Shown one piece after another: positions 7,951 through 30,317 of a stretch of DNA of 64,000 bases. Position 1 is the stretch's first letter, and each line of letters starts with the position of its first letter. A program made the position numbers and the translations under genes. The notes under the pieces were generated by a model. That model made no database searches. It was not told the origin of the DNA and was given only the letters and a program-made list of their open reading frames with translations. Source of the DNA: Actinokineospora pegani (GTDB lineage: Bacteria; Actinomycetota; Actinomycetes; Mycobacteriales; Pseudonocardiaceae); assembly GCF_009745975.1 (NCBI RefSeq), contig NZ_WHOL01000064.1, positions 62,001-126,000 on the forward strand, written 5' to 3'.

Positions 7951-8000
7951 GGGCGCATTGTGCGACAGGCCCTGTCACCCGATCCAGTGACTTGACCGCG

Positions 8001-8597: not shown

Positions 8598-8622
8598 CCG
8601 AAGAGGCTACCGCGGATTGCTT

Positions 8623-8644: not shown

Positions 8645-8683
8645 TCTTGGAGTCATGAGACCACCGGGAGGAGAAAGGAGACG

Positions 8684-13500: not shown

Positions 13501-16337
13501 TCGCCGGAGTCCTGCAGGTAGAAACCGCGCAGCGAGGGCTGCGGGCCCTCGTGGTCGGCGACGACGGTGCCGCGCACGGTGACCGTCTGGCCCGCCTTGG
13601 GGCTGGTGTCGGTCGTGCCCTGCACCGAGCCGATCGTGGCGGCCGGGACGGTGCAGGCCGGGGCCGCGCCGACGGTCACGGTCGCGCTGATGGACTTGCG
13701 CCGCGCCAGCGGCAGGTCCTTGGCGATGACGCCGTCGCCGTAGAAGACGGCGTCACCCGAGTCGGCGAGCACCCGCACGGCCGAGGTGTCCAGCAGCGGG
13801 TTCGGCACCGAGGCGATGGCCTCCGGCTTGCCCGTCGCCGCCACCGCGTCCAGCGAGCCCGCGCGGATCACCGGCTGGCTGGCGGGGTCGCCGTCCCAGG
13901 TGTAGAAGCGGAACTCCCCCGCCGCCCCGGTACCGCCGTCGGACGGGCCCGCGATGACCAGGTACTGGTCGGCGTCGTTCTTGCGGATCTCCCGCACGCC
14001 GCGACCGCCGAGGTCCCAGCGCAGCGCGGTCCCGAAGGTCGCGGTGGCCGAGGTCGGGTTGGCGGTGACGAGCGCGGCCGGGTCGGCCAGCGGGATGACC
14101 ACGGCCTCGCCGTCGTCGGTCAGCGGGCCGCGCAGGCCCAGCAGCAGGCTGCCGTCGGGGGCGAACTCGGCGGCCTCCAGGTTGAACCCGGTCGGGCCGC
14201 CGTCGAGGCCCTCGGGCGCGCGGGTGGCGGCCGCGGCGAGGCCGAGCGCGCCGCCGTTGGCGTCGTCCCAGGCGATCAGGTCGTCGCGCAGGTTCTGGTG
14301 GCTGCCGCCGAGGGCCAGCGTGGTCGAGGGGCCGGAGCCGGTGACGGTGGTGCTGAACAGGGTCTGGCGGTTGAGCCGGGTCTTGGCCGAGGAGTTCTGG
14401 CCCTGCGAGCCGATCCAGTAGACGGTGTCGCCCCGGCGCGCCGCTGCCTCGATGTCGATCTCGCGGGTGACGTCGGGGTCGCGCAGCGCCAGGCCCGCGG
14501 CCCGCACGTCCAGCGAGGACACCGGGTAGCGGGAGTGCTCGCGGTCGTAGACGCGCAGCACGTTCGTCTCGTCATCGGAGACGACCATCGCACCGCCGCC
14601 GAGGTCGACGGCGGCGGAGGCGTCGCTCGCGCCGTAGTGGTTGCGGGTGCCCGCGGGCAGCGCGCCGGAGACCGAGACCGGGAACGTGGTGCTGGCGGAC
14701 TGGGCGCCGTCGGTCACGGTGACGGTCAGGGTGGTGTGCCCGACCCCGACCGGGGTGGGCACCAGGGTGCGGGTGTCGCCCGCCCCGGTGGTCTCGCCGG
14801 TGGCGACGGCCGGGTTCGCACTGGTCACCGTGGTGGTCAGGCCGCCCGCGGCGGACTCGGCGTCGGCCACCTCCACGGTGCGGACCGCGGGCGGGTTGTC
14901 CGGGTCGCCCAGGGTCAGGGCCAGCTCGGCGACCGGGACCGGGCCGATCGTCGGCGGGGTGTTGGGCGCGGTCGACACCGTGACGGTGGCGGCGCGGCTG
15001 TCGGCCGTGCCGCCGGGGCCGCTCACCCGGACCCAGTAGGAGCGGGTGGCGTCCAGCGCGGGGGTGGTGAAGGTGGCGCTGTCGGTCCCGACCGGGGTGC
15101 CGGTGTCGCCCGCGGCGCCCTCGAACCACTGGTGCGACAGCGGTCCGGTGCCGTTCGCGGTGACCGCCAGGGTGGCCGAGCCGCCGCTGCCGACCGCCAC
15201 GTCCTCGGGGTGGCCGGTGATCCGCGGCGCGGTCACCGGGGCCTCGCCGGTCGGCGCGAACGCGACGCCGCGCAGGACGGTGTTCGCGGCGCCGGTCGCG
15301 AGCAGCGTCCCGGTGGCGGCGATCGGGGCGTTGAACGCCGCCGCGTCGTCGACCTTGACCAGCGCGCCGGAGCCGGAGCTGGTGGTGGCGAACAGGGTCA
15401 CGCCGTTCGGGGTGACCTGGCCGGTGAGGCCGCGGGCCGCGCTGCCGTTGGGGCGGAAGGAGCCCTGGGCCGACCACGCGGTGCCGGTGGAGGAGAACTT
15501 GAGGATGCCGCCGCCTGCCGAGTCGTCGGCGACGTAGAGGGTGTCGACGCCGGGCACCGCGGGGTCGCGGTCGAGCGCGACGACGCCGTAGGGGCTGGCG
15601 GACGGGGCGATCAGGGCCGCGGTCTGCCCGGGTGCGGTGGCCTGGTCGACCGAGTAGACCCCGCTGGTCCCGGAGCCGGTGGAGAAGAACAGCTCGCCGT
15701 CGACCGCGGAGACCGACCGGATGTTGGTCGGGCTGCTCGCGAGCTGCGCGGACGCGCCACCGCCGAAGGGCACGTGCCGCAGGCCGCTGGTGCCGCCCGC
15801 GGCCCAGAAGCCCGCCCCGTCCGCCGAGGTCGCGCTGCGCACGTTGTTCCCGCTGAACGCGTCGGTGACCGCGGTGGTCGTGTCGACGCCCCCCGCGCCG
15901 TCGACCCGGGCCAGGACCCGGTTGACCGAGGCGGTCGTCGAGGAGGCGACCGACGCCGTCCCGGGGGCGGTGTCGTACCCGGCGAGCGTCAGGTACCGCC
16001 CGTCCTGCGACCGCGACAACGACCCCTCCGACGTCGCCGACCCGCTGGTCGTCAGCCGCCGCCCGGCGGCACTGGCCGACGTGGGCAGCGGGATCGTGCG
16101 CACCAGCGCCCCCGCCGCGGTGTACTCGTCGAGGAACACCGGGGCGGCGGCGCTGGACAGCGCCCCCACCCCCGCCCCGACCCGCAGGACGACGACGTTG
16201 CCGGGGCTGAACGGGGCCGCGGCGGCGGGACCGGCCGAGGCGACGACGGAGACGGTGGGCGCGACGACGAGGGCGGCGACCAACGCGGTCGACCACCGCC
16301 CCGGTCGACGCGGGGGTCGGACTGTGCGGAGTCGCAA
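10515..16337 (-). CDS. Secreted multidomain ExeM/NucH-type endonuclease with Ig-like and DUF3616-like domains
   Basis: 1940 aa. A Sec signal peptide ends near residue 41 (AGPAAAA-PFSPG). Then come a beta-propeller-like region (45-365), an Ig-like domain (about 370-455), a cadherin-like domain (460-555) and a DUF3616/esterase-like propeller (about 560-885). An OB-fold follows (895-1000; YLQDSGDGDAATSDGVFVF). The catalytic endonuclease/exonuclease/phosphatase domain spans about 1168-1486, with NLLNFFNTY, the Mg-binding ITGIQEIEN, TANHFKSKGS, VVGDLNSY and FRTSDHDPVLVGI. Four putative-Ig (PPGLTL...GTPTAAG) and Big-type repeats (1490-1830) precede a C-terminal tail. The enzyme should degrade extracellular DNA for nutrient or phosphate gain; the repeats probably hold it at the cell surface. 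The gene ends in a strong terminator. Confidence 0.88.
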   Translation of the reverse strand: MRLRTVRPPRRPGRWSTALVAALVVAPTVSVVASAGPAAAAPFSPGNVVVLRVGAGVGALSSAAAPVFLDEYTAAGALVRTIPLPTSASAAGRRLTTSGSATSEGSLSRSQDGRYLTLAGYDTAPGTASVASSTTASVNRVLARVDGAGGVDTTTAVTDAFSGNNVRSATSADGAGFWAAGGTSGLRHVPFGGGASAQLASSPTNIRSVSAVDGELFFSTGSGTSGVYSVDQATAPGQTAALIAPSASPYGVVALDRDPAVPGVDTLYVADDSAGGGILKFSSTGTAWSAQGSFRPNGSAARGLTGQVTPNGVTLFATTSSGSGALVKVDDAAAFNAPIAATGTLLATGAANTVLRGVAFAPTGEAPVTAPRITGHPEDVAVGSGGSATLAVTANGTGPLSHQWFEGAAGDTGTPVGTDSATFTTPALDATRSYWVRVSGPGGTADSRAATVTVSTAPNTPPTIGPVPVAELALTLGDPDNPPAVRTVEVADAESAAGGLTTTVTSANPAVATGETTGAGDTRTLVPTPVGVGHTTLTVTVTDGAQSASTTFPVSVSGALPAGTRNHYGASDASAAVDLGGGAMVVSDDETNVLRVYDREHSRYPVSSLDVRAAGLALRDPDVTREIDIEAAARRGDTVYWIGSQGQNSSAKTRLNRQTLFSTTVTGSGPSTTLALGGSHQNLRDDLIAWDDANGGALGLAAAATRAPEGLDGGPTGFNLEAAEFAPDGSLLLGLRGPLTDDGEAVVIPLADPAALVTANPTSATATFGTALRWDLGGRGVREIRKNDADQYLVIAGPSDGGTGAAGEFRFYTWDGDPASQPVIRAGSLDAVAATGKPEAIASVPNPLLDTSAVRVLADSGDAVFYGDGVIAKDLPLARRKSISATVTVGAAPACTVPAATIGSVQGTTDTSPKAGQTVTVRGTVVADHEGPQPSLRGFYLQDSGDGDAATSDGVFVFDNGADLVANGDVVEVTGPVSEYQGQTQITASATGVRPCGRQGTVAPVEVTLPRSDAADLEPYEGMLVRFQQTLTVTEHFQLGRFGQVVVSAGGKLPQPTSILPATDRAAVAAQQNANNRNRIILDDATQAQNPDPIAFGRGGQPLSAANTLRGGDTVTNPVGVLTYTWGGNSASGNAYRLRPIGALGGTAVFDPANPRPTTTPDVGSGGVRVAGANLLNFFNTYTGCRFGTAGGPADCRGADNDAEYQRQLVKQVEALRFLDADITGIQEIENDGYGSASAIQALVDALNAVDGPGSWAFVDFDAATGVVDVAGTDAIKSGLLYRPARVTPVAGATFVDQDPVFERRPVAQAFQTPAGARVTVTANHFKSKGSCPTAGPDADQGDGQSCWNARRTEQARALSSWLSSTVVPGAADPDVLVVGDLNSYAGEDPVAVLEAAGFTNLAKRHQGARTYSYVFDGQWGYLDHALASASLTPQVTGAGEAHHNADEPSVLDYNTDFKTPAQVASLYAPDRFRTSDHDPVLVGIDLGAPATLSGTPGAGTVGTPYAFGFTRSGPATVSVASGTLPPGLTLGQDGTLAGTPTAAGEFAFTLRATNVHGATEFATSVRVGKAASAVSLAAAPATVATGGQVTLTATVTGPVAATGEVVFREGSTPLGTAAITDGSAVLTVAAPTAGARTAVADYAGDADLTGATSAEVVFTAVDPVSLGGALPDGKVGAAYSAAIAHTGGEPVAFTVTDGALPPGLTLSGSGTVTGTPTAAGSFAVTVTGANAVSNSTRAYTVVVAPATTTTVLTSSATPSVIGAPVRFTATVAGATGGTVRFTVDGEALGDPVPVVDGEAVSSPVSTLAVGAHPVTAAYTGPSPSSATLTQVVQYGIKVLTPAQATAGDIVPVRFQLVDATGRPVPLLTSLLVALSGRLEVSASGAQSFAATAPLFSVLTNSNVLLWKTAKRPTGQTSVTVRMSYPGLPDQVVTTPLTLK

Positions 16338-16525
16338 GGGTGCTCCAAGCGGCGGGGGACCAGGGCGCGGGACCCCCGTCCCGGAGGTCGCCGCATGGTC
16401 TCGTCGCGGGCCTGCCCGGCCGCGTTACCGCTCGTGGCCGAACGACCCGTGCTTGTCACCTGCTGTTCCCCCGGTTGGCAGACACCGTGGCGGTGCGTGT
16501 CCACCCGTGCTCGGCGCGCGACCGC

Positions 16526-16794
16526 TCAGTCCTGGTCGCCGGCGGTCTCGGGCTCTGGTTCGACCGGGTCGCGCTTGGCGGGCGCGGGGAAGACGAACGC
16601 GCCGATCATCCAGCCGATCCCGGCGAGCGCCGCACCCTGCGCGGTGGCCTCGACCTTGGGGTTGCCCAGCGGGTGGAACGCGAGCGCTGCCTCGTCCCCC
16701 TCGACATCTCGACGGTCGGCGAGTCGATGAGGTTGACGAGGTACAGGCCCAGGGGCAGCAGCAGGCTGAGCGTCCCCAGGGCGAAGCAGGTCAT
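16526..16794 (-). pseudogene. Small membrane protein paralogue with a single-base frameshift
   Basis: The frame from ATG 16794 reads MTCFALGTLSLLLPLGLYLV, nearly the same as the start of the neighbour at 16823-17305. After the run TCGAGGGGGACG (about 16710) the homologous sequence continues in another frame (DEAALAFHPLGN..., then ALAGIGWMIGAFVFPAP) and ends at the TGA at 16526. Restoring one G in the G5 run gives a continuous protein of about 90 aa with two membrane segments, lacking the neighbour's Pro/Gln tail. It is either a real frameshift or a homopolymer error. Function unknown. Confidence 0.6.
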
Positions 16795-16822
16795 CCGCGT
16801 GTGGATCACCTTGGCACAGCCG

Positions 16823-17305
16823 TCAGGCCTGCCCGCCGAACTGCTGCGGGTTCGGACCCGTCTGCTGCTGCGGCGGAGTGCCTTGGGGGTGCTGCGACTG
16901 CTGCGGGGTCGGGCCGGTCTGCGGGTTGGGCTGCTGCTGCGGGGGCTGGGCACCGTACTGGCCCTGCGGCGGGGTGGGCTGCCACCGCTGCGGGGCGGGA
17001 CCCTGCGGCGGGTGGGCCGGGCCTGCCTGCCTCTTGCCGGGCGCGGTGAACACCAGCCCGCCGACCATCCACGCCACCCCGGCGATCCCGGCCGTCTGCG
17101 CGACGGCGTTGAGCGATGACAGCTTCGTGAACAGCTCGAAGTCCTCGGAGGGCGCCGCCTCCTGCACCGCCCGGAACGACGACACCCCCACCGTGGCCGG
17201 TCTGCTGCTCACGTCCCCGTAGGCCGCCTCCACCAGGCTGAGGACGAAGAACCCCAGCGAGACGAGCAGGCTCAGGGCGCCGAACACGAAACAGGTCATC
17301 CGCAT
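16823..17305 (-). CDS. Small membrane protein with Pro/Gln-rich tail
   Basis: 160 aa. Membrane segments are at about 5-27 (FVFGALSLLVSLGFFVLSLV) and 66-88 (AVAQTAGIAGVAWMVGGLVF), followed by a low-complexity Pro/Gln/Gly tail (95-160). The ATG at 17305 is preceded by GAAGGT at a 7-base distance. It is a tandem paralogue of the frameshifted gene downstream. The membrane hairpin plus disordered cytoplasmic tail is common among uncharacterised actinobacterial proteins. It sits 79 bp downstream of the metallophore-like operon on the same strand, but nothing ties it functionally to that operon. Confidence 0.7.
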   Translation of the reverse strand: MRMTCFVFGALSLLVSLGFFVLSLVEAAYGDVSSRPATVGVSSFRAVQEAAPSEDFELFTKLSSLNAVAQTAGIAGVAWMVGGLVFTAPGKRQAGPAHPPQGPAPQRWQPTPPQGQYGAQPPQQQPNPQTGPTPQQSQHPQGTPPQQQTGPNPQQFGGQA

Positions 17306-17384
17306 GGCGGATACCTTCGCATGTCCCACCCGGTCCCGGGCCGGAAGCGGTTCGGGCCCCGCCCCGGGACCCGAACCGAGAACC

Positions 17385-18602
17385 TCAGCCGGGAACCGGC
17401 TCCCGGACCGGCGACACCAGCGGCGCGATCGTCCCCGCCGCCGCCTGGGCGCGGTGCAGGGCGATCTCGGCCGTGGGGCCCTCGGCCAGCAGGATGCCCG
17501 TGCACGCCCGCTGGTCGGCCAACTGGTCGACGACGTCGCCGACGGAGGCCGTGGGGTACCACTGCGGTGAGCCGGGGAAGCCCGGCAGGCGGTCCAGGCC
17601 GGACCAGCCCGCGAGCGCGCCCGTCGTGGTCGGGTAGACCAGGACGAACCCCGACGCCGGGCCGGTGGGGTCCGGGCCGTCGAGCAGGTCGGGGCGCTGG
17701 CCCAGGGCCATCGACACCATCGCGGCGTAGACGTTGGTGGACAGGGATCGGCACAGGGCCTCGCCGACCAGCGCGCCGCCGATGCGGGCGTTGACCTCCA
17801 CCACCTCCGGGCCGTCCGCGGTGAGGATGAACTCGGTGTGGGCGAAGCCCTGTGCCAGGCCCGCCACCGCCAGGACGCGGGTGATCCAGTCACCCAGGCC
17901 CTCGGCCTCGGCGGCGGTGAAGGCGACCGGGAAGGCGGCCGCCTCCTCGCGGCGGGCGGGTTCCGGGGAGATCTGCCTGCTCATCACGCCCAGCAGCCGG
18001 GTCTGCCCCGCCCAGGTCACCGTCTCCGCGCTGTAGAGCGGGCCCGCGAAGTACGGCTCGGCGACCAGGTGGCCCTTGAGCGGGGACGTCGCCGCCTCGG
18101 CCAGCGCCGCCGCCAGTTCCGGCTCGTCGCGGCACAGCCACACCGCGCGCGAGGAGGTGCCCGCCGAGTCCTTGACCACCAGGGGCAGGCCGACGCTGGC
18201 GGGCAGGTGGCCCAGGTCGGTGGTGGCGGGGCCGCGGCTCAGTCCGGCGGCGTGCAGGCGGGTGCGGACCTGGCCCTTGTCGCGCAGCACCCGCACGGCG
18301 GCGGCGTCGGGGCCGGGCAGGCCCAGGGCCGCGGTCAGCTCCGCGCCGGGCAGGGCCCAGGTGTCGGTGGAGCTGATCAGCCCGGCCAGGTCGTCGACGT
18401 CGCGCAGGGCGGCGAGGCAGGCGGCCGGGTCGGCGGTATCGACGTCGACGACGTCGAGCTGGTCGGGGTGGAGGCGGGACAGCTCGTGGGTGTAGATCGA
18501 GCGGTGGCCGGTGAGCAGGCGCAGCCGGTGGCCCGCGGCGGCCGCGGCGTCGACGAGCCTGCCCAGGCCGAAGGTCAGCGCCTCCAGCAGCACGATGGTC
18601 AC
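17385..18602 (-). CDS. ATP-grasp domain-containing ligase of the metallophore-like operon
   Basis: 405 aa. It begins VTIVLLEALTFGLGRLVDAA, a biotin-carboxylase-type N-terminal nucleotide fold. The ATP-grasp core spans about 105-300, with VLRDKGQVRTRLHAAGL, SVGLPLVVKDSAGTSSRAVW and the metal-binding end EVVEVNARIGGALVGEAL (E-x-N-x-R). A C-terminal 90-residue domain follows. The start GTG at 18602 overlaps the stop of the PLP enzyme gene (GTGA), so the two are coupled. This class of amino-acid ligase (BacD, DdaF and relatives) forms amide bonds between carboxylates and amines. I infer that it condenses the product of the upstream PLP enzyme into a small chelating molecule taken up by the adjacent ABC transporter. 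Confidence 0.82.
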   Translation of the reverse strand: MTIVLLEALTFGLGRLVDAAAAAGHRLRLLTGHRSIYTHELSRLHPDQLDVVDVDTADPAACLAALRDVDDLAGLISSTDTWALPGAELTAALGLPGPDAAAVRVLRDKGQVRTRLHAAGLSRGPATTDLGHLPASVGLPLVVKDSAGTSSRAVWLCRDEPELAAALAEAATSPLKGHLVAEPYFAGPLYSAETVTWAGQTRLLGVMSRQISPEPARREEAAAFPVAFTAAEAEGLGDWITRVLAVAGLAQGFAHTEFILTADGPEVVEVNARIGGALVGEALCRSLSTNVYAAMVSMALGQRPDLLDGPDPTGPASGFVLVYPTTTGALAGWSGLDRLPGFPGSPQWYPTASVGDVVDQLADQRACTGILLAEGPTAEIALHRAQAAAGTIAPLVSPVREPVPG

Positions 18603-19666
18603 GAGGCGCGCTCCTGGGCCGGGATGAGGTCCGGGTGGGCGTGCCCGCGGCGCTGCCAGTCCATTGTGGACCAGGGCGGTGCCAGCTCGTCCAGGGAGCC
18701 GATCTCCACCGGGGCCAGCCCGGCCGGGTCCAGCGCGTCGCGGTGCGCGGCGAAGACCTTGGCCACGTACCGGTGGCCGGTGTCCGCGCCGATGACCACG
18801 TGCGTGCGGGCCGGGTCGCGCCCGCCCTCCCAGCGGGCGGCCAGGTGCGCGGCGCCGGTGGACAGGCCCGCGAACACGGCGTGCTCGCGCAGCAGGCCCA
18901 CGGCGGCGGCGCGCGCGTGTTCGAAGTTCATCCAGTGCACGCGGTCGTAGAGGTCGTGGCGGACGTTGCCGAACGGGATGGCGCTGCCGATGCCCGCGAT
19001 GATCGCGTCCGGGTCGGTGAACCGGTCGCTGCCGAAGGTGATGCTGCCGAAGGGCTGCACGCCGACCAGCCGGGTGGCCGGGTCCGCGCGGCGCAACGCC
19101 TGGGCCAGGCCGCCGGTGGACGCGCCGGTGCCGACGCTGCCGACCACGGTGAGCGGCCCGGCGGGCAGGGCGGCGCGCAGCAGGCCCGCCAGCTCGGAGT
19201 AGCCCAGGTAGTGCACCGGGTCGTGGTACTGGCGCATCCAGTGCATGTCCGGGTGGGCGGCCAGCAGCTCGCGCACCCTGGCGACCCGGCCGCGCTGGTC
19301 CAGGCGCAGGTCCTCGGACGGGGGCATCTGGTCGACGGTCACGCCCAGGACCTCCAACTGCGCGCGCATCGTGGCGTCGACGGTGGTCGAGGCGACGATG
19401 TGGCAGTTGAGGCCGTAGCGGTTGCACGCCATGGCGAGCGCGAGCGCGTAGATTCCGCTGGAGCTGTCGACGAGCGTCTGCCCCTTGCGGATGATCCCGG
19501 CGTCGAGCAGGTGCCGGACCGCGCCGAGGGCGGCGTAGACCTTGAGCGTCTCGAACCGCACCAGCACCGTGTTGGGCGACAGGCGGATCAGCGAGGGGGT
19601 CTTGATCGCGTCGGTGATGTGCTCGTGCACCACGGCGGTGGGGGCCTGCACTGTCATGGCGCTCAC
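18599..19666 (-). CDS. Cysteine-synthase-like PLP-dependent enzyme (divergent)
   Basis: About 355 aa, fold-type II PLP enzyme (CysK/SbnA-like). The phosphate-binding glycine loop is VGSVGTGASTGG. The Schiff-base lysine region reads RFETLKVYAALGAV, where canonical enzymes have an Asn-Pro-x-Gly-Ser stretch before the lysine. That stretch appears deleted here, and the substrate-binding T-S-G-N-T motif is replaced by DSSSGIYALALA. The start is taken at GTG 19666, coupled to the preceding stop (GTGA); ATG 19657 is the alternative. SbnA-type enzymes swap O-phosphoserine or acetylserine side chains with amine nucleophiles to give diamino-acid siderophore precursors. Coupling to an ATP-grasp ligase and a FecBCD-type importer supports a related metallophore role. 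The reaction is unproven. Confidence 0.8.
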   Translation of the reverse strand: MSAMTVQAPTAVVHEHITDAIKTPSLIRLSPNTVLVRFETLKVYAALGAVRHLLDAGIIRKGQTLVDSSSGIYALALAMACNRYGLNCHIVASTTVDATMRAQLEVLGVTVDQMPPSEDLRLDQRGRVARVRELLAAHPDMHWMRQYHDPVHYLGYSELAGLLRAALPAGPLTVVGSVGTGASTGGLAQALRRADPATRLVGVQPFGSITFGSDRFTDPDAIIAGIGSAIPFGNVRHDLYDRVHWMNFEHARAAAVGLLREHAVFAGLSTGAAHLAARWEGGRDPARTHVVIGADTGHRYVAKVFAAHRDALDPAGLAPVEIGSLDELAPPWSTMDWQRRGHAHPDLIPAQERAS

Positions 19667-20673
19667 CGGCCGATCGAGCGCAGGTACCCGGCGATGCTCT
19701 CCGCCGCCCGGATGTTGCGCGGGCCGGAGACCATGTCGCCGTAGGACAGGACGTGGAACCGGTTCTCCTTGACCGCGGGCGTGTTGGCGAGCTGCGGCAG
19801 GGCCTTGAGGAAATTGATCTTCTCGGTGGCGGGCTGGTCGGCGTAGTCGACGACGATGATGACCTCGGGGTCGGCCTCGACCACCGACTCCCACCCCACG
19901 GTGCTCCAGCCCTTCTCCAGGTCGGCGAAGGCGTTCTTGCCGCCCGCCACATCGATGACATCGGTGGGCGCGGCGTGCTTGCCCGCGGTGAACGGCTGGT
20001 CGTTGCCCGAGTCGTAGACCCACACCCGGGCCCGCTCGTCGGCGGGCGGGGCGCTCTCGCGCACCTTGTCCGCGCGGCCGCGCAGCTCCTCGACCAGGGA
20101 CTTGGCCCTGTCCTGCACGCCGAAGATCCCGCCGAGGTTGAGCAGGTCGGTGTAGAGGGCCTCCAGCGGGGCGGGCTGCTGCTTGTCGCCGTCGGGGAAG
20201 GCCCAGCAGGTCTCGGTGTGCACGTAGCTGTTGACGCCGACCTGCTCCAGCAGCTTCGGGGTGATGCCGCGGGCCTCGGAGAAGCCCCCGTTCCAGCCCG
20301 CGATCACCCAGTCGGCCTTGGCGCCGACGACGACCTCCCGGCTGATGCGGCCGCTGCCCAGCCGCTCGACCTCGGCGTAGTCGTCCTTGTAGTCCGAGCC
20401 CGCGATCGAGGGGTCGCCGAGGGAGTTCATCACGTAGCCGCGCATCCTCGGCGCCAGGCCGAGCGCGAACATCTTCTCGACGCCGGACACGTCGTAGGCG
20501 ACGGCGCGTTGCGGGGTGGGGTAGTCGACCTTCTGGCCGCAGTTGGTTACTTCGGCGGTGGAGGTGGAGCCGGAGGGCCCGGCCGCGGTCGGCTCGACCG
20601 TCGCGCCGCAGCCCACGAGCAGGGCGGCGACCGCGGCGAGCACGGAGAGGCGGGGGAGGGTCATGGTGCTCAC
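19663..20673 (-). CDS. ABC transporter substrate-binding lipoprotein (siderophore/metal-chelate type)
   Basis: 336 aa. The signal peptide ends in the lipobox LLVGC, so the protein is lipid-anchored outside the membrane. The mature part is a FecB/BtuF-like (TroA superfamily) binding fold: two lobes joined by a long helix, with VGAKADWVIAGWNGGFSE and WESVVEADPEVIIVVDY as the conserved ends of each lobe. GTG 20673 is preferred because GAGGA is about 9 bases upstream and it overlaps the ATPase stop by 4 bp; ATG 20664 is also in frame. It should capture a metal chelate or cobalamin-like ligand and deliver it to the permease. The ligand is unknown. Confidence 0.88.
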   Translation of the reverse strand: MSTMTLPRLSVLAAVAALLVGCGATVEPTAAGPSGSTSTAEVTNCGQKVDYPTPQRAVAYDVSGVEKMFALGLAPRMRGYVMNSLGDPSIAGSDYKDDYAEVERLGSGRISREVVVGAKADWVIAGWNGGFSEARGITPKLLEQVGVNSYVHTETCWAFPDGDKQQPAPLEALYTDLLNLGGIFGVQDRAKSLVEELRGRADKVRESAPPADERARVWVYDSGNDQPFTAGKHAAPTDVIDVAGGKNAFADLEKGWSTVGWESVVEADPEVIIVVDYADQPATEKINFLKALPQLANTPAVKENRFHVLSYGDMVSGPRNIRAAESIAGYLRSIGR

Positions 20674-21479
20674 AGGGGGATTTCCTCGGTGTTCGAGTCG
20701 ACGGGGAGGTCGAAGAGCAACTGGGGGGCGCCGGTCACCGGGTGGGTGACGACGGTGACCTCGACCCCGAACACCGAGCGGATGGTGTCGGGGGTCAGCA
20801 CCTCCGCGGGTTTGCCGCAGGTGACGAGGCCGCCCTTGCACAGCAGGGCTATCCGCTGGCACACCGCTGCGGCGAGGTTCAGCTCGTGCAGGGCGGTGAT
20901 CACCGTGAGTCCGCAGCCGCGCAGGAACACCAGCAGCTCGACCTGGTGGCGGATGTCGAGGTGGTTCGTCGGCTCGTCCAGGACCAGGACGGCCGGTTCC
21001 TGCACCAGCGCGCGGGCCAGCAGCACGCGCTGCCGCTCGCCGCCGGAGAGGGTCAGGATGCTGCGCGCGGCCAGGTGCGTGATGTCCAGCCGGGCCAGGG
21101 CGTCGCGGCACAGCCGCCGCTCGCGGGCGTCGAGGCGCAGGTTGCCGCCCTGGTGCGGGGCGCGGCCGAGGGCGACGACCTCCTCGACGGTGAAGTCCAG
21201 CTCGGCGCGGCTGTCCTGGGTGAGCGCGGCGATCTGCCTGGCCGTGTCGCGCATCCCCTTCTCGGACAGGTCGTCGCCGTCGAGCCAGACCACGCCGCCG
21301 GAGGGCTTGAGGGCGCGGTAGACGCAGCGCAGCGCGGTGGACTTGCCGCTGCCGTTGGGGCCGAGCAGGCCCACGACCTCGCCCGCGCCCACGTCCAGGC
21401 AGAGCTTGTCGACCAGGACCGTCCCGGAGATCTCGACCGAGACGTCCTGCAGCCGCAGTCCCATCGGCTCGACCGGCAT
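20670..21479 (-). CDS. ABC transporter ATP-binding protein (FepC/BtuD type)
   Basis: 269 aa. Walker A is GPNGSGKST, the signature is LSGGERQRVLLARAL, and Walker B with catalytic Glu is VLVLDEPTNHLD; the H-loop is ALHEL. This is the layout of ATPases that drive iron-siderophore, heme or B12 uptake. ATG 21479 shares its A with the TGA of the permease gene (TGATG), so translation is coupled. It powers the import complex formed with the genes on either side. Confidence 0.95.
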   Translation of the reverse strand: MPVEPMGLRLQDVSVEISGTVLVDKLCLDVGAGEVVGLLGPNGSGKSTALRCVYRALKPSGGVVWLDGDDLSEKGMRDTARQIAALTQDSRAELDFTVEEVVALGRAPHQGGNLRLDARERRLCRDALARLDITHLAARSILTLSGGERQRVLLARALVQEPAVLVLDEPTNHLDIRHQVELLVFLRGCGLTVITALHELNLAAAVCQRIALLCKGGLVTCGKPAEVLTPDTIRSVFGVEVTVVTHPVTGAPQLLFDLPVDSNTEEIPL

Positions 21480-22582
21480 CACTTGCCTCCGAACGCGTAG
21501 CCGCGGGTGCGCATGACGTACAGGAACACCGGGACGCCGATCAGCGCGGTGATCACACCGAGCGGCAGCTCCTCCGGCGGGACCAGGGTGCGGGCCAGCA
21601 GGTCGACCCAGATCAGGAACACCGCGCCCGCGAGCGGGGCCACGGCCAGCAGCCTGCGGTGCCCGGAGCCCACCAGCATCCGCACGACGTGCGGCAGCAC
21701 CAGGCCGACGAAGCCGATGGCCCCGCTGACCGCGACGAGCAGGCCGGTGACCACGGCGGTGAGCAGGAACAGCCAGCGGCGCAGGGCGGCGGCGTCGGTG
21801 CCCAGGCTGGCCGCGGTCTCGTCGCCCATCGACATCACGTCGAGCGCGGTGCCGCGGCGCAGCAGCAGGACGATCGCGATGACGACCCCCGCGGTGCACA
21901 GCGGCAGCGACTCCCACGACGCCGAGCCCAGGCTGCCCAGCAGCCAGAACAGCACCGTCTGCGCGGCCTGGCCGTTGGGCGAGAGGAACACCAGCACGCT
22001 CATCGCGGCCTGGAACGCGTACGCCAGCGCGACACCGGTGAGCACCAGCCGCAGCGGCGTCAGCCCGGAGCGGCTGCGCGCGGCGAGGTAGACCAGCGCG
22101 GTCGCGCCCAGCGCCCCGAGGAACGCCGCGGCCGACAGCGCCAGCACGCCCAGCCCGGCGAACAGGCCGAACACCACGACGGCGGTCGCGCCGACCGACG
22201 CGCCGGAGGAGATGCCCAGCACGAACGGGTCGGCGAGCGCGTTGCGCACCAGCGCCTGCACCGCCACGCCCACCGCGCTCAGCCCCGCGCCGACCACGGC
22301 GGCGAGCAGCACGCGCGGGGTGCGCACGTTCCAGACGATGGCGTAGTCGATGACCTCGTCGGCGCGGATGGTGCCGCCGGTGAGCGCCTTGCCCAGCAAG
22401 CGCAGCACGTCGGGCAGGGCCACGGTGACCGGGCCGAGCGCGATCCCGGCGACGACCGACAGCGCCAGCGCGCCGGTGAGTCCGATGAGGATGATCGGGA
22501 GCGGGAGCTGCTTGGCGGTGACCTCGCCCGGCTCGGCCAGCAGGCGGAACGCGGCGGCGGGCGGCGCGGTCTCAGTTGCCAC
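21479..22582 (-). CDS. FecCD family ABC transporter permease
   Basis: 367 aa. A short cytoplasmic N-terminus is followed by about ten hydrophobic helices from residue 30. Diagnostic FecCD motifs are WNVRTPRVLLAAVVGAGLS, GVAVQALVRNALADPFVLG, SGASVGATAVVVFG and IGFVGLVLPHVVRMLVG. A single permease gene is present, so it must form a homodimer, as in BtuC systems. It overlaps the methyltransferase gene by 11 bp and the ATPase gene by 1 bp, firmly placing it in the operon. Confidence 0.95.
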   Translation of the reverse strand: MATETAPPAAAFRLLAEPGEVTAKQLPLPIILIGLTGALALSVVAGIALGPVTVALPDVLRLLGKALTGGTIRADEVIDYAIVWNVRTPRVLLAAVVGAGLSAVGVAVQALVRNALADPFVLGISSGASVGATAVVVFGLFAGLGVLALSAAAFLGALGATALVYLAARSRSGLTPLRLVLTGVALAYAFQAAMSVLVFLSPNGQAAQTVLFWLLGSLGSASWESLPLCTAGVVIAIVLLLRRGTALDVMSMGDETAASLGTDAAALRRWLFLLTAVVTGLLVAVSGAIGFVGLVLPHVVRMLVGSGHRRLLAVAPLAGAVFLIWVDLLARTLVPPEELPLGVITALIGVPVFLYVMRTRGYAFGGK

Positions 22583-23312
22583 GGGTTCCTCGCACGATGA
22601 GTCGGCGGGCGGTGTTGTCGTAGGGGCTCAGGTCCCAGTCGCCGAAGCACTCGACGGTGGCGAACCCGACCTCGCGCAGCAGCGCCCGGATCTCCGCGGC
22701 GCTGTAGATGAACGAGTGGATCGACTTCCGCTTGACCACCTCCCCCGCGACGAGCGTCCAGTCGGTGCGCAGCCGGGTCCAGTCGTCGAGGATCGTGTCG
22801 CGCATGAACACGGTGCCGCCCTCGACGTCGACCGCCTGCGGCCGCCCGACCCAGCTCGCCAGCACCTCCTTGCCCAGCAGGTCGAGCACGAGCGAGCCGC
22901 CGGGGGCCAGGCTGGCGTGCGCGTTGCGCAGCACGGTCAGGTTGTCGCCCGCCTCGGTGAAGTAGCCGAACGAGGTGAACATGTTGATGACGAGGTCGAA
23001 CTCGCCCGGCGCGACGTAGTCGAGCATGTCGGCCCTGACCAGGTCGGCCGACACCCCGGCCGCGGCCACCGCCGCCCGGGCGCGCTCGAGCATGGCGGCG
23101 CTGAGGTCGACGCCGGTCACCCGCGCGCCGCGCCTGGCCAGCTCGACGACGTGCAGGCCGGGACCGCAGGCCAGGTCGAGCACCCTGGTGTCGGCGCCGA
23201 CCTTGAGCAGCGGTGAGGTGTCCGCGAGGGTCGCGGCCTCCTGGCCGCGGCGGGCGGGGAACATCACGCTCGCGAAGTCGACCCAGAGGTCGTCGTCGTC
23301 GTACCAAACCAT
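22572..23312 (-). CDS. Class I SAM-dependent methyltransferase
   Basis: 246 aa. Motif I is VLDLACGPGLHVVELARRG, motif II/III VTGVDLSAAMLERA, and the acidic FDLVINMFTSFGYF matches motif IV of the ubiE-like group. It is the first gene of the tight minus-strand operon and overlaps the permease start by 11 bp. I infer that it methylates the small molecule made by the PLP and ATP-grasp enzymes, or a precursor. No IdeR-type iron box was found in the 157 bp upstream, so control by iron is not supported by the sequence. Confidence 0.88.
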   Translation of the reverse strand: MVWYDDDDLWVDFASVMFPARRGQEAATLADTSPLLKVGADTRVLDLACGPGLHVVELARRGARVTGVDLSAAMLERARAAVAAAGVSADLVRADMLDYVAPGEFDLVINMFTSFGYFTEAGDNLTVLRNAHASLAPGGSLVLDLLGKEVLASWVGRPQAVDVEGGTVFMRDTILDDWTRLRTDWTLVAGEVVKRKSIHSFIYSAAEIRALLREVGFATVECFGDWDLSPYDNTARRLIVRGTRGN

Positions 23313-23469
23313 GCCGCTCCGCTCATAGATCCGACTCGGTAGATGGGTCGGTGTGCGGTACAGCCCAGTTCCCGCCAGGGGTCGGGCTTTTTCCGGCGTA
23401 CTGGTTTTCGCCGTGCGGATCCCCCGTCAGTCAGGAAACATCACGGTTTTCGACAAGTTCGCCGGGCGC

Positions 23470-24663
23470 TCAGGCGCGGACCCGGGTCCCGGCGACCGCG
23501 GCGCCCACCGTCGCGACGCCCAGCGCGACGGCCATGCCGGGGTAGCCCGCGACGGCGAGCCCGAGCCCGCCCAGCGAGGCGCCGAGGAAGGTCCCGACGC
23601 TCATCGCCGCCGAGGTCACGCTCAACACCGCCCCGCGCTGGGCCCCGGCCCGGCGCACCAGCAGCGTGATCAGGCAGGCGGCGGCGATGGCGTGCGCGAC
23701 GCTGAGCACGGCGGTCAGCAGGAGCGCCACCCACAGCACGGGAACGGTCAGCAGCACCACCACGGCCACCGCGCCGACGGTCAGCGACAGCGGCATCAGC
23801 ACGCGCGGGCTGACCCGGAGCCGGTCGGCGGCGGCGAGTTTGCCGCCCGCGAGGTTGCCGAGGAAGAACGCGGTCCCGCTCAACGTCCAGACCAGCGCGA
23901 AGGGGCCCGCGCCGATGCCGAACACCTGGTCGTAGTAGGCGGCGAGGTAGGCCAGGTAGCCCATGAACGCCGTCGACCGCAGCAGCGCGACCAGCAGCAG
24001 CGGGGTCAGGCCGGGCACCGTGGCCAGCGCCCGCAGCGACGCCAGGTAGCCGACCCGCTCGGGTCGCTCGACCTCGCGGCCGCCCCGGCCCCGGACGATC
24101 ACGGCGGCCAGCAGCACCGACAGCACCGCGACCATCACGAAGTCGCCGCGCCACCCCCACAGCAGGGCGGGCAGGGCCACGACCGGCGCGGCCAGCATCG
24201 CGGTCAGCGACTGGGTGGCGGTGACCAGGGTGGCGGCCCGGCCCGCGGCGGCGTCGTCGTCGAACCGGTCGGCCGCCGCGGCGCCCAGCACCGGCTGGGT
24301 GATCGCGAGCCCGGCGCCGACCAGCAGGCAGAACACCGTCAGCGCGGCGACCCCGCCGAGCGCGCCGACCCCGGAGGCCAGCGCCAGCACCAGCAGCCCG
24401 CCCGCGGCGGCGACCGGCCGGGGCACCCGGTCGATCAGCGGCGCGAGCAGCGCCCCCGCGGTCAGCGACGCCAGGCCGCCCAGCCCGCGCAGGCCGCCGA
24501 CCACCGCGACGTCGGCTTGGGCGTCGGCGGCGATGGGCACCAGGTAGGTGCTGAAGATGGTGTAGGGCACCAGCCCCAGCGCCGAGGCGGCCAGCACGGG
24601 GCCGAGCATCCTGGCCATCCGCCAGTCGCTCGGCAACTCGCGCTGGGGGGTCTGGGCTGACAC
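23470..24663 (-). CDS. MFS transporter, probable exporter
   Basis: 397 aa with about twelve hydrophobic helices in two halves separated by a charged loop near 190-210 (VRGRGGREVERPERVG). GTG 24663 is chosen because GAGGTGGT lies about 5 bases upstream. The MFS A-motif region after helix 2 is present in a divergent form (LLAPLIDRVPRPV). The gene is upstream of the methyltransferase gene on the same strand with a 157-bp gap, and divergent from a P450. In siderophore clusters an MFS protein of this size usually exports the finished chelator. I infer the same here; multidrug efflux is the alternative. Confidence 0.82.
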   Translation of the reverse strand: MSAQTPQRELPSDWRMARMLGPVLAASALGLVPYTIFSTYLVPIAADAQADVAVVGGLRGLGGLASLTAGALLAPLIDRVPRPVAAAGGLLVLALASGVGALGGVAALTVFCLLVGAGLAITQPVLGAAAADRFDDDAAAGRAATLVTATQSLTAMLAAPVVALPALLWGWRGDFVMVAVLSVLLAAVIVRGRGGREVERPERVGYLASLRALATVPGLTPLLLVALLRSTAFMGYLAYLAAYYDQVFGIGAGPFALVWTLSGTAFFLGNLAGGKLAAADRLRVSPRVLMPLSLTVGAVAVVVLLTVPVLWVALLLTAVLSVAHAIAAACLITLLVRRAGAQRGAVLSVTSAAMSVGTFLGASLGGLGLAVAGYPGMAVALGVATVGAAVAGTRVRA

Positions 24664-24790
24664 GACACCACCTCGTTCCGACCGGTCGGGCACCGGCCGC
24701 TGTGGACCTTCCCGGACCCGGGGAACTTTCGCACACCCCCACCCGACCGTTGCGATGATCCCGCGAACCCCCACCCCCGATGGGAGCCCG

Positions 24791-25990
24791 GTGACCACCG
24801 CCCAAGGCTGTCCGGTGCACGACTACCCCTTCCGCGAACCACACGAGCTGGACCTGGAGCCCGAGTACGCCCGGCTGCGGGTGGCGGAGCCCCTGAGCCG
24901 CGTCCGGCTGCCCTACGGCGGCGAGGCGTGGCTGGCCACCGGGCACGAGGACGTCCGCACCGTGCTCAACGACCCCCGGTTCAGCCGGGCGGCGCTGCTG
25001 GGCCGCGAGGTCCCCCGCACCTCGCCGCGCCCGCTGCGCGACAGCACCCTGCACACGATGGACCCGCCGGAGCACAACCGGTTGCGCCGGTTGGTCTCCT
25101 CCGCGTTCACCCCGCGCAGGCTGCGCGTGCTCGCCGAGCAGACCCAGCACGTGGCCGACGCGCTGGTCTCCCGGATGCTCGACGAGGGCCCACCCGCCGA
25201 CGTCGTCTCCGGCCTGGGCACACCGCTGCCGGTGGCGATGACCTGCCGCCTGCTCGGCGTCCCCCGCGCCGACCACGACCGCTTCACCGCCTGGGTGGAC
25301 GTCGCGCTGGCCACCACCGCGTTCCCGGCCGAGGAGATCCAGGCGGCCTTCGACGCGCTCAAGGCCTACCTCGCCGACCTGGTGGCGACGCGCCGCGAGA
25401 CCCCGGCGGACGACCTGCTCAGCGCGCTGGTCTCGGCCAGGGACAACGAGGGCAGGCTCAGCGAGGACGAACTGGTGGTCCTCGGTGTCACCCTGCTCTA
25501 CGCGGGCCTGGACACCACCTCGAACCACATCGGCAACTTCACCTACAACCTGCTCACCCACCCCGAGCAGCTCGCGGCGCTGCGCGCGGACCGGGGCCTG
25601 CTCGACCGGGCGGTGGAGGAACTGCTGCGGTTCACCCCGATCGTCACCTCGGCGGGCTTCACCCGCGTCGCCCTGGCGGACGTCGAACTGGGCGGTGTGC
25701 TGGTCGCCGCGGGCGAGTGCGTGATGGTGCAGATGGACGCCGCCAACCGCGACCCCAGGGTCTTCGACCGCCCCGACGACCTGGACATCACCCGGGACAA
25801 GCCACCCCACCTGGCCTTCGGCCACGGCCCGCACTACTGCGTGGCCGCCCAGCTCGCGAAGATCGAACTGCGGATCGCCCTGGGCACGCTCCTGGACCGC
25901 CTCCCGGGGTTCACCCTCGCCACCACCGACCTGCGCTGGCGGTCAGGCCGCATGGTGCGCGGCCTGGAGGCACTCCCCATCACCTGGTGA
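24791..25990 (+). CDS. Cytochrome P450
   Basis: 399 aa, a soluble bacterial class P450. The I-helix oxygen-activation motif is AGLDTTSNHIG, the K-helix ExxR is in EELLRF, and the heme loop is FGHGPHYCVAAQLA with the axial Cys350. The usual glycine two residues after the cysteine is alanine. GTG 24791 with GGGAG just upstream is preferred over ATG 24755. It is divergent from the MFS exporter across about 130 bp, so it may hydroxylate the compound made by that cluster, but it could be independent. No dedicated ferredoxin gene is adjacent. Confidence 0.93.
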   Translation: MTTAQGCPVHDYPFREPHELDLEPEYARLRVAEPLSRVRLPYGGEAWLATGHEDVRTVLNDPRFSRAALLGREVPRTSPRPLRDSTLHTMDPPEHNRLRRLVSSAFTPRRLRVLAEQTQHVADALVSRMLDEGPPADVVSGLGTPLPVAMTCRLLGVPRADHDRFTAWVDVALATTAFPAEEIQAAFDALKAYLADLVATRRETPADDLLSALVSARDNEGRLSEDELVVLGVTLLYAGLDTTSNHIGNFTYNLLTHPEQLAALRADRGLLDRAVEELLRFTPIVTSAGFTRVALADVELGGVLVAAGECVMVQMDAANRDPRVFDRPDDLDITRDKPPHLAFGHGPHYCVAAQLAKIELRIALGTLLDRLPGFTLATTDLRWRSGRMVRGLEALPITW

Positions 25991-26063
25991 GACAACCCCA
26001 CCCGCGCCCCTGTTCCGCCCCCGGAGCAGCGCGCCCACCCCGGCGAGGAGTCCGTTCGCCGGC

Positions 26064-26624
26064 CTACCCCGCGCCAGTCGTACGGGCCTCATCCGATCGG
26101 AGGAGGTCATCACGAGCACGGGCGACCCGGGAACGCACGGTGCCGATGGGACACCCGCAGACCTCCGCCGCCTCCGCGTAGGAGAACCCGAGGACCTGGG
26201 TCAGCACCAGCGCCTCCCGTCGCTCCTCCGTGAGCCCGTCGAGCAGCACCCCGAGCTCGACCACGTCGGTGAAGCCGGAAGCGTGGTCGCGGGCTTGGTG
26301 CTGCTCGGCGGCGGCCACCCAGTCCTCGGCCGCCGAGCGGCGGGGCCGCGCCATCGCGGTGCGCACGCTGTCGACGACCACGCGGCGGGCGATCGACAGC
26401 AGCCAGGTGCGCGCGGTGGCCCTGGCGGCGAAGCGCGGCAGGCTGGGCAGGGCGCGCAGGTAGGTCTCCTGCGTGAGGTCGTCGGCGAGGTCGGCCGAGG
26501 CGAGGTGGGCGGTGAACTGCCACACGTCGCGCTGCGTGGCGCGGATGAACGACTCGAGGGCGCGGCGGTCGCCCCGGCCCGCGGCCAGCGCCCAAGCGGT
26601 GATCTCCTCATCCCGTGATCGCAC
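26064..26624 (-). CDS. ECF-type RNA polymerase sigma factor
   Basis: 186 aa. Region 2 covers about 15-85 (ADDLTQETYLRALPSLPRF, then TWLLSIARRVVVDSVR). Region 4 covers about 115-180 (GLTEERREALVLTQVLGFSY, then GTVRSRVARARDDL). The start GTG 26624 follows the usual N-terminal length for ECF factors. It is divergent from a membrane zinc-finger protein gene that has the hallmarks of its anti-sigma factor. The pair resembles the SigC-type group of actinobacteria, but the subgroup cannot be fixed by eye. Confidence 0.9.
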   Translation of the reverse strand: MRSRDEEITAWALAAGRGDRRALESFIRATQRDVWQFTAHLASADLADDLTQETYLRALPSLPRFAARATARTWLLSIARRVVVDSVRTAMARPRRSAAEDWVAAAEQHQARDHASGFTDVVELGVLLDGLTEERREALVLTQVLGFSYAEAAEVCGCPIGTVRSRVARARDDLLRSDEARTTGAG

Positions 26625-26652
26625 AAACCGGGAGAGTAACCGAACAGGCGGG

Positions 26653-26681
26653 GGAACTTTAGTCCTGACTTCCGCGACAAT
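26653..26681 (+). promoter_or_regulatory. Candidate ECF sigma promoter for the anti-sigma gene
   Basis: GGAAC at 26653-26657 matches the usual ECF -35 core. After a 16-base spacer comes GCGACAAT as a possible -10. It lies in front of the anti-sigma gene, where ECF autoregulation is common. The -10 does not match the most frequent CGTC type, so confidence is limited. Confidence 0.4.
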
Positions 26682-26688
26682 AAGAGGT

Positions 26689-27426
26689 ATGGACTGCCTG
26701 ACCTGCCGCGAAGCCCTCTCGGCCCGGCTCGACGGCGAGGCGGAGCCCGTCGAGCAGGCGCGGACGGACGACCACCTGGCCGAGTGCCAGTCCTGCCGCG
26801 GCTGGCAGGCCCGGGCCGCGCGCAGCGCCCGCCTGCTGCGGGTGCGGCCGGTCCCCCGGGTCCCGGACCTGACCGCCCGCATCCTGGACGAGGCGCCGCT
26901 CCCGGCGCGCATCCCCGGCCTGGTCCCCCGCACGCTGCTCGGCCTCGTCGCCGTCGCGCAGCTCGGCCTGGCGCTGGCGCAGATTTTCGGCACCGGCCCG
27001 TCGTCGCACGGCGAGCACGGCGGGGGACCGCTGTCGCTGCACCTGTTCAACGAGAGCACGGCGTGGAACCTGGCCCTGGGCATCGGCTTCTACTGGGCGG
27101 CCTGGCGCCCGCGCGGCGCGTCGGGCCTGCTGCCGGTGCTCACCGGCTTCGTGGTGGTCCTGCTCGGCTACTCCGCGCACGACCTGATCACCGGCGCGGC
27201 CCCGCTGAGCCGGGTCCTCGGCCACGCCCTCGTCCTCGCGGGCTGGCTGCTGCTGATCATCCTCCGCCGCGCCCTCCGCGACCCGGCCCCCGGCGACAAG
27301 GCCGCCGAGGACACCGCCCGCCGCCTCGACCTCGCCGACGAGCCGCCCCTGGCCGACCCGGGCGCGGCCGACCAGCCGGGCACGGGCCGCCACCTGCGCC
27401 CGGCGGGACGGCACCACGCCGCCTGA
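26689..27426 (+). CDS. Zinc-finger membrane anti-sigma factor
   Basis: 245 aa. The N-terminal zinc-binding anti-sigma (zf-HC2) domain has Cys3, Cys6 and the HxxxCxxC motif in HLAECQSC. Four hydrophobic helices (about 85-107, 123-143, 147-167, 172-195) follow, then a charged C-terminal tail with a histidine-rich end (residues 230-245). The AGAGGT element directly abuts the ATG at 26689. The gene is divergent from the ECF sigma factor. It should hold the sigma factor at the membrane until a redox or envelope signal releases it; the signal is unknown. Confidence 0.87.
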   Translation: MDCLTCREALSARLDGEAEPVEQARTDDHLAECQSCRGWQARAARSARLLRVRPVPRVPDLTARILDEAPLPARIPGLVPRTLLGLVAVAQLGLALAQIFGTGPSSHGEHGGGPLSLHLFNESTAWNLALGIGFYWAAWRPRGASGLLPVLTGFVVVLLGYSAHDLITGAAPLSRVLGHALVLAGWLLLIILRRALRDPAPGDKAAEDTARRLDLADEPPLADPGAADQPGTGRHLRPAGRHHAA

Positions 27427-27512
27427 CCGCGCAGGCACAGGCCTGAGCGCGCCCGAGAGCCACTCGCGGGTTCCGACCACCTCGGGCAGCGCTGGGGGCG
27501 GGCGGCGCCTGG

Positions 27513-28136: not shown

Positions 28137-28185
28137 GCGGTCGAGTCTGGTCGACCGTGGCGCCGCTGACGATCACCTCGACGGC

Positions 28186-28716: not shown

Positions 28717-29145
28717 GTTCGCTGCCTTCCGGAGGGAAAGGGTGGGATGACGCCAGTGGTCTGACACCGTCGGTAGGCGGAAGGCTCCCGCAGCCACCCG
28801 ATTGGACTAATGAGAACAAAGTGTGCCGGATCCGCCAAGCCGTGCCGCCACCCGGGTGGACCCGCCCGAGGACCGCCCGCGCGCGCCAACACGGGCAGAA
28901 CACGGTTTCCGCACCGAAAAAAGGAATCACCGGCAGGTCGAACGCGGCAACGCGAGTCCGATTTCCGCAGTCCCAGTTGCCAGTATTCATCATTGCCAGT
29001 CATTGCCATATTCACAGCGTATCGTCGCAGGTGAACGGCGGTCCCACTTCTGGTCTATTCCTGATGGCACGCCGAGCCAATATCGTTCATCGAGTGCGGC
29101 AAACCCTGCAGCCGCGCATTCCCTGCGAAGAACGGAATCCCACGC
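28717..29145. other. Divergent intergenic region upstream of the subtilisin gene
   Basis: No convincing gene in 429 bp. The right half is AT-richer than the rest of the window, as expected of promoters. TTGCCAGT occurs at 28977-28984 and 28993-29000, with a third TTGCCA at 29003, forming a short direct-repeat cluster that may bind a regulator. Confidence 0.45.

Positions 29146-30317
<1,172 letters not shown>

Follow-up and report, generated by a model that had tools for sequence, protein, structure and literature searches.

A putative metallophore system under predicted SigC-type control in Actinokineospora pegani

Results of our analysis indicate that the stretch of Actinokineospora pegani DNA analysed here (64,000 nucleotides; hereafter, the window) probably encodes a system for the synthesis, export and re-import of a metallophore that is switched on by copper shortage. 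Seven genes of the minus strand, all of which lie where the first-pass annotation had placed them, form its core. The gene of an MFS transporter (23470..24663; Pfam MFS_1), presumed to be the exporter, is located 157 nt upstream of the gene of a class I methyltransferase (MT; 22572..23312; Methyltransf_25). The latter is followed by genes encoding a FecCD-family importer permease (21479..22582; FecCD, 288 bits), an importer ATPase (20670..21479; ABC_tran), a substrate-binding lipoprotein of a FecBCD-type importer (19663..20664; Peripla_BP_2; alternative GTG start at 20673), an SbnA-like PLP-dependent beta-replacement enzyme (18599..19657; PALP; alternative GTG start at 19666), and an ATP-grasp ligase of the L-amino acid ligase type (17385..18602; Pfam LAL_C2 and ATP-grasp_4). 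From the MT gene to the ATP-grasp gene, neighbours overlap or are separated by at most 5 nt. The gene set recurs with its order kept in other genera, above chance.

The boundaries initially drawn for the unit (17385..24663) are too narrow. Three further genes are parts of it and move its end to position 27426, namely, those of a cytochrome P450 of family h22 (24791..25990, plus strand; Pfam p450; alternative start at 24755), a probable SigC-family ECF sigma factor (26064..26624, minus strand; NCBIfam SigC, 213 bits), and a putative anti-sigma factor of family f21 (26689..27426, plus strand; zf-HC2, 31 bits at a cut-off of 22). The linked SigC-type sigma factor, which is the main clue, is thus encoded outside the earlier boundaries. 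An Rfam scan of the region 14000-30000 was empty.

The sequence element GGAACY-N16-CGAC, of SigC promoter type, is present at three places in the window: upstream of the operon that starts with the MT gene (23347..23372, minus strand), of the P450 gene (24722..24747, plus strand), and of the anti-sigma gene (26653..26678, plus strand); a scan upstream of the window MFS gene was empty. Among homologous MT genes, 66 of 73 are preceded by this element, while dinucleotide shuffles gave a mean of 0.17 and a maximum of 2 in 73. It also precedes nine of ten P450 genes of family h22, all nine genes of an alternative FecCD permease, all four genes of NikA-like substrate-binding proteins, and all six anti-sigma genes of family f21, as compared with 5 of 406 singleton genes. 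In loci L079-L158, the pattern matched 212 times and its reversed version 6 times; genome-wide in G000 it is not commoner than the reversed control (67 vs. 73). The same strict element is common to the three window places and to copper-related genes of genomes that we take to be Mycobacterium, where it lies upstream of a PPE-like gene in the ScoE/FcoT chalkophore operon (all three stretches with such a gene) and of both copper-type P-ATPase genes that are divergent from sigC. One of five chalkophore-type stretches, L303, is devoid of the strict site. As a test of the element, the chalkophore operon was preferred to cytochrome bd loci, which correspond to the C. glutamicum target cydA. The available portions of PMC6338062, PMC9147137, and PMC4821874 contain no SigC consensus with which the element could be compared.

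The window sigma factor scores 212-213 bits with the NCBIfam SigC model, just under its curated cut-off of 219, and is 59% identical to the SigC of L305, which itself exceeds this cut-off (226.7). A second SigC-like sigma factor of equal score is encoded in G000, where the third-best sigma factor scores 62. SigC is active in copper starvation (PMC7924339, PMC7337898, PMC8999054), and the role of the mycobacterial diisonitrile chalkophore in copper starvation is established (PMC7924339, PMC9600254).

The predicted structure of the PLP enzyme is nearest to those of O-ureido-L-serine synthase, its top fold match, and SbnA, although its score with the NCBIfam SbnA model (130 bits) is below the cut-off of 350. 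The predicted ATP-grasp structure is nearest to the L-amino acid ligases 3vot, BacD, and RizA. A diamino-acid-derived chelator, as proposed in the first-pass annotation, would fit the presence of an SbnA-like enzyme. As the first-pass annotation had noted, domains of NRPS, NIS synthetases and opine dehydrogenases are absent from the Pfam matches of the seven genes.

The same biosynthetic core is accompanied in various loci by importers of three kinds: the window-type FecBCD, another FecBCD, and a NikA/CntA-like one (SBP_bac_5). It is because these three importer types share one core, and because signals of metal-starvation control accompany it, that a non-iron metallophore is the best reading of the cluster. 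The earlier proposal of an unusual metallophore of this kind that is made, exported and re-imported therefore stands as the best one, with SigC/copper-type control in the window clade and Zur-type/zinc control in a sister clade. One point against it is that 27 of 61 long loci, many of them from the S. griseus group, encode none of the three importers, as compared with 34 that encode one. Homologues lacking the transporter, a predominance of which had been named as an argument against the proposal, are thus not in the majority, though nearly so. Another such point is that, in six Streptomyces genomes of this group's kind, searched for an unlinked importer, none of the 20 examined FecCD-permease loci had the promoter element. 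An MT is annotated in 53 of the 61 long loci, and Met/His-rich membrane proteins in 17.

Two alternatives appear improbable to us, though they have some evidence in their favour. According to one, zinc is the metal of all members of the family, and only the control has changed in the window clade. In the sister clade, the same PLP enzyme family and FecBCD importer are kept, DUF364 replaces the ATP-grasp enzyme, and the operon has Zur-type boxes in 18 of 19 loci. Because of these boxes, we predict that the sister clade is controlled by zinc shortage and serves zinc. NikA/CntA-like importers, moreover, can carry several metals. However, a comparable Zur-type site occurs in only 1 of 90 class A (window-type) loci, far from the cluster, and the class A element is that of the copper-chalkophore operon. 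We also rejected the membership of the window in a Zur regulon; the best Zur-type site in it scores 12.6 bits and lies away from the cluster, while the weakest published box scores 21.8.

The other alternative, similarly doubtful, assumes that the product is an antibiotic or antimetabolite dependent on copper, which leaves the cell without being re-imported, and that the importer serves something else. The MT, PLP enzyme, ATP-grasp and MFS genes occur in many Streptomyces without an importer in the locus. The synthesis of D-cycloserine also pairs a PLP synthase (DcsD) with an ATP-grasp enzyme (DcsG), and the window PLP enzyme has O-ureido-L-serine synthase as its top fold match. Against such a product argue the position of the window importer within the biosynthetic operon and the presence of different importers under the same promoter element in other genera.

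We consider it very unlikely that the importer and enzymes handle a non-metal metabolite, such as a peptide or a cofactor precursor: the best NCBIfam models of the window lipoprotein and transporter are those of a putative F420-0 ABC transporter (below cut-off) and the ligase resembles dipeptide ligases, but the signs of SigC and Zur-type control, as well as the swapping of importer types between loci, speak against it. Least probable of all is an iron siderophore that contains a building block like that of staphyloferrin B, since the nearness of SbnA among characterised relatives, the frequent transport of ferric siderophores by FecBCD importers, and the element at 9 of 21 ferric-reductase-like genes (h8) are opposed by the SbnA score far under its cut-off, by the lack of a NIS-synthetase domain in the Pfam matches, and by the lack of an IdeR-like site. 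As to the latter, a 19-position IdeR consensus had 8 mismatches at its best match in 17000-27600 and 7 at the best on the plus strand of the window, which agrees with the first-pass annotation. For the window clade, both the iron and the zinc readings rank below the copper reading.

In the copper-responsive metallophore system that we propose, the SigC-type sigma factor (26064-26624) would be freed from its anti-sigma partner in copper-poor cells and would transcribe three units: the operon from the MT gene to the ATP-grasp gene, the P450 gene, and, as feedback, the anti-sigma gene. The PLP enzyme may act on an activated serine, probably O-phosphoserine, in which an amine would take the place of the beta leaving group, so that a 2,3-diaminopropionate-type building block results. 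An amide bond between this block and another amino acid would then be made by the ATP-grasp enzyme, and MT, together with P450 in this genome, may decorate the product. The product, which we infer to bind copper, would leave the cell via the MFS protein, and the metal complex would return via the lipoprotein, permease and ATPase.

On a broader view, the window and sister clades may represent one biosynthetic class of metallophores that centres on an SbnA-like enzyme. The partners of this enzyme would be exchangeable (either ATP-grasp and MT or DUF364 and a different methyltransferase, a GHMP kinase being optional), three or more types of importer would serve the class, and two regulators would control it, SigC/copper in the window clade and Zur/zinc in the sister clade. 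This combined reading seems to us as likely as not. A search run without a positive control found no GHMP kinase elsewhere in G000. If the two-regulator reading is true, related scaffolds have been tuned to different metals via swapped partner enzymes and regulators, and the Zur-type sister clade opens a direct test of the evolution of metal choice. To our knowledge, established biosynthetic types of copper-acquisition molecules are few, and little is known of copper acquisition in actinomycetes outside mycobacteria. Our search of the open-access literature found no description of the cluster or its logic. If the copper reading is true, an undescribed copper metallophore is encoded in many actinomycete genomes: one collection scan counted 473 relatives of the PLP enzyme, sister groups included, of which the best 80 were obtained. 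The promoter element would also offer a way into the copper-starvation genes of actinomycetes.

Among known systems, staphyloferrin B shares with the window an SbnA-like PLP enzyme and differs in control; its pathway was rejected on the SbnA score and on the absence of SbnB and NIS synthetase among the operon-gene matches. With opine-type metallophores (staphylopine, Cnt), some relatives share NikA/CntA-like SBP_bac_5 importers, whereas the window importer is of FecBCD type, and the operon's Pfam matches lack nicotianamine-synthase-like and opine-dehydrogenase domains, which rejects this type as well. With D-cycloserine synthesis, the cluster has in common the O-ureido-L-serine synthase fold match and an ATP-grasp partner, but the window ligase is nearest to L-amino acid ligases and an importer is present. 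The [S,S]-EDDS zincophore system likewise has an SbnA-like enzyme and metal-responsive control. The mycobacterial diisonitrile chalkophore (ppe1-nrp), which is SigC-controlled, shares with the window the promoter element and probably a SigC-family sigma factor. It is made by isonitrile/NRPS chemistry, in contrast to the window cluster, whose genes match neither NRPS domains nor the ScoE model; an isonitrile chalkophore was rejected on these grounds. What links the cluster to the SigC (ECF36) regulon is the promoter element, found at three places in the window in the form that it has at known SigC targets.

All seven genes that the first-pass annotation had placed at 17385-24663 were found there on the minus strand, with the Pfam domains MFS_1, Methyltransf_25, FecCD, ABC_tran, Peripla_BP_2, PALP and ATP-grasp with LAL_C2. 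The genes from the methyltransferase (MT) through the ATP-grasp ligase overlap or almost touch each other, and the MFS gene is located 157 nt upstream of the MT gene. Among the NCBIfam matches listed for these seven genes, no specific model scored above its curated cut-off: the SbnA-like PLP-dependent enzyme (PLP enzyme) reached 130 bits against SbnA (cut-off 350), while the three transporter parts matched putative F420-0 transporter models and the ligase the ATP-grasp half of PRK02186, all below cut-off. Beyond the boundary proposed earlier lie genes encoding a P450 (24791-25990, family h22), an ECF sigma factor (26064-26624, f20) and a zf-HC2 protein, a putative anti-sigma factor (26689-27426, f21). 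The comparison of gene families found these three families again next to related loci of class A, described below, and assigned the window MFS protein to a small family. An IdeR-like site was sought and, in agreement with the first-pass annotation, none was found. Positions 10515-16283 (minus strand) encode a 1922-residue protein that combines Ig-like domains with one of endonuclease/exonuclease/phosphatase type.

The PLP enzyme has matches at 1e-30 in 52 of 298 genomes of the order; of those listed, 33 (own genome counted) are at least 50% identical to it, and the next is 38% identical. A contig scan with one genome per species yielded 473 relatives, the best 80 of which (L079-L158, some of them from the same genomes as L039-L047) originate from Saccharothrix, Amycolatopsis, Actinokineospora, Streptomyces, Kibdelosporangium, Saccharopolyspora, Micromonospora, Sphaerisporangium, Actinomadura and others.

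The loci fall into three classes. Gene families were built with our own gene caller and BLAST, and since the caller misses some genes, family counts are lower bounds. In class A (the window, L039-L047 and L079-L158), the PLP enzyme is in most loci accompanied by MT and ATP-grasp. Among the 61 loci from the window and L079-L158 that span 19 kb or more, at least 57 encode ATP-grasp, 53 MT, 34 either of two MFS families, 30 sigma, 17 a Met/His-rich membrane protein, 6 anti-sigma and 2 a GHMP kinase. The importer is of the window FecBCD type in at least 22, another FecBCD set in at least 9 and of SBP_bac_5 type in at least 3; one of the three types is present in 34 of the 61 loci and none was called in 27. 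The SBP_bac_5 protein scored 312 of 393 bits for NikA and 226 of 800 for CntA (NCBIfam, both below cut-off). Class B (L048-L066, 19 loci) encodes a DUF364 protein, a "putative heavy-metal chelation" domain, in all loci, window-type FecCD in at least 18, a substrate-binding lipoprotein (SBP) in 16, MFS f5 in 16 and a second methyltransferase family, f11, in 6. The window MT and ATP-grasp families are both absent from these 19 loci; a GHMP kinase is annotated in four and can be recognized in uncalled sequence of others. In class C (L067-L078), a PLP enzyme of 31-37% identity is combined with a GHMP kinase, an argininosuccinate-lyase-like enzyme and ATP-grasp, and several loci adjoin genes of very large proteins. 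Two of them encode PLP enzyme and ATP-grasp as a single protein, of 750 residues in L072 (9087-11339) and 757 in L078 (8974-11247). A quick tree built from 116 distinct rows shows classes B and C as single clades (support 99 and 100), and class A takes two changes: L047 groups with class B (support 86), and L152 and L155 branch low.

The SigC-type promoter element GGAACY-N16-CGAC was noticed in the window and L039-L045 and tested afterwards. Of the 73 MT genes in the window and L079-L158 (one gene of L113, with too little upstream sequence, was left out), 66 have it no more than 200 nt upstream, as compared with a mean of 0.17 and a maximum of 2 in 100 shuffled runs. The MT genes that lack it are those of L130, L140, L146 and L147, together with one each in L153, L154 and L158; these three loci have a second MT gene, which carries it. 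The element also precedes 9/10 P450, 9/9 alternative FecCD, 6/6 anti-sigma, 6/7 h41 methyltransferase, 4/4 NikA-like SBP and 4/5 h53 genes, as well as 9/21 ferric-reductase-like (h8), 5/27 window-type permease, 10/76 PLP, 6/45 f28 MFS and 5/75 ATP-grasp genes, against a background of 5/406 singleton genes. The genes of L046 are split, and there it precedes both the PLP and the ATP-grasp gene. L079-L158 contain 212 matches versus 6 for the reversed pattern; the whole A. pegani genome contains 67 versus 73, so the pattern by itself is not specific. Nine matches in this genome lie within 200 nt upstream of a called gene start, three of them in this cluster. In L237, an element at 6549 lies upstream of a chelatase-like gene (6592-8667) among cobalamin-type genes, as read from sequence, and may be a chance occurrence.

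The class B operon (FecBCD, DUF364, SbnA-like PLP enzyme, MFS and in some loci GHMP kinase) is predicted to specify a zinc metallophore. A matrix of 19 published, predicted mycobacterial Zur boxes (from PMC4298942), with the weakest member in leave-one-out scoring as threshold (21.8 bits), detected sites at the operon in every class B locus but L060 (18 of 19). Of 90 class A loci it detected one in L090 alone, a strong box (19754) that is distant from the cluster and close to an unrelated gene. A simpler palindrome scan gave 17/19 and 2/90, respectively, the latter two within unrelated genes. The rarity of Zur-type boxes in class A speaks against zinc as the metal of the window cluster, and the negative IdeR scan against iron. 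L048, a class B locus with a Zur-type box, additionally has a SigC-type element, at 1255, upstream of a second binding-protein gene.

We infer the enzyme chemistry of the cluster as a whole. The invariant Lys39 and the DSSSG loop of the PLP enzyme are taken as the PLP lysine and the phosphate loop. Its best solved relatives by sequence are cysteine synthases and SbnA, and the structures that its model (pLDDT 79, weak at 204-232) resembles most are those of O-ureido-L-serine synthase, an O-acetylserine sulfhydrylase and SbnA (19-22% identity). For the ligase, the nearest structure to the model (pLDDT 92) is that of an L-amino acid ligase. L047, L152, L155 and class B loci encode a GHMP kinase, a possible source of O-phosphoserine or O-phosphothreonine. 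A search of A. pegani for the L047 kinase, run without a positive control, gave no match; therefore, our guess for the substrate of the window PLP enzyme is O-phosphoserine from serine synthesis. A modified dipeptide-like product would fit the dipeptide-epimerase-like and acyl-CoA-dehydrogenase-like genes of Micromonospora-type loci.

Certain observations speak against a copper-starvation-controlled metallophore that is exported and reimported. Many Streptomyces loci consist of MT, PLP, ATP-grasp and MFS genes with the importer absent from the locus, and in six Streptomyces genomes of this type the element was found at none of 20 FecCD loci (20 of the 24 matches listed). It was not found upstream of the window MFS gene either, and the window sigma factor, at 213 bits, is slightly under the curated SigC cut-off of 219.

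The copper reading draws on known SigC systems. SigC of M. tuberculosis is reported to counter copper starvation (PMC7924339), the nrp cluster is described as required at low copper and not at low zinc (PMC9600254), and the C. glutamicum sigma-C regulon as switched on by copper deprivation (PMC7337898). A. pegani has two SigC-like sigma factors (214.6 and 212.4 bits; the third-best sigma scores 62.3). Of 200 genomes of the order, 122 have a match to the SigC model at 1e-40, in 22 of them above its cut-off; among 14 control genomes, C. glutamicum alone has one. A search of 16 genomes for FcoT found it in 4 and not in the other 12, which include A. pegani. Five chalkophore-type (ScoE/FcoT) stretches, L302-L306, come from another family of the order; SigC scores, together with the presence of PPE-like, ScoE and FcoT genes, led us to take their source genomes as Mycobacterium. 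ScoE exceeds the NCBIfam cut-off in L304, L305 and L306, and SigC and the copper-type P-ATPase in L304 and L305. In the latter two, a single stretch contains the ScoE/FcoT operon and sigC, which is divergent from the P-ATPase gene. The five stretches together contain 12 element matches versus 2 reversed. The strict element precedes the PPE-like gene (a reading of sequence) in L302, L304 and L305, the divergent P-ATPase gene and small HMA-like genes in L304 and L305, and ScoE in L304 and L306 and three further genes; L303, which has no PPE-like gene, has no strict element. The window sigma factor is 59% identical to SigC of L305. Genes of Met/His-rich small membrane proteins adjoin class A sigma genes. 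In A. pegani, the second SigC-like gene (L235 8508-9775, contig C86) likewise has a neighbour encoding a small membrane protein, part of which is Met/His-rich. The element also lies upstream of an A. pegani PepSY_TM gene (L236 7982-9373, contig C31), whose 46% identical homologue in L304 is just downstream of an element-bearing HMA-like gene.
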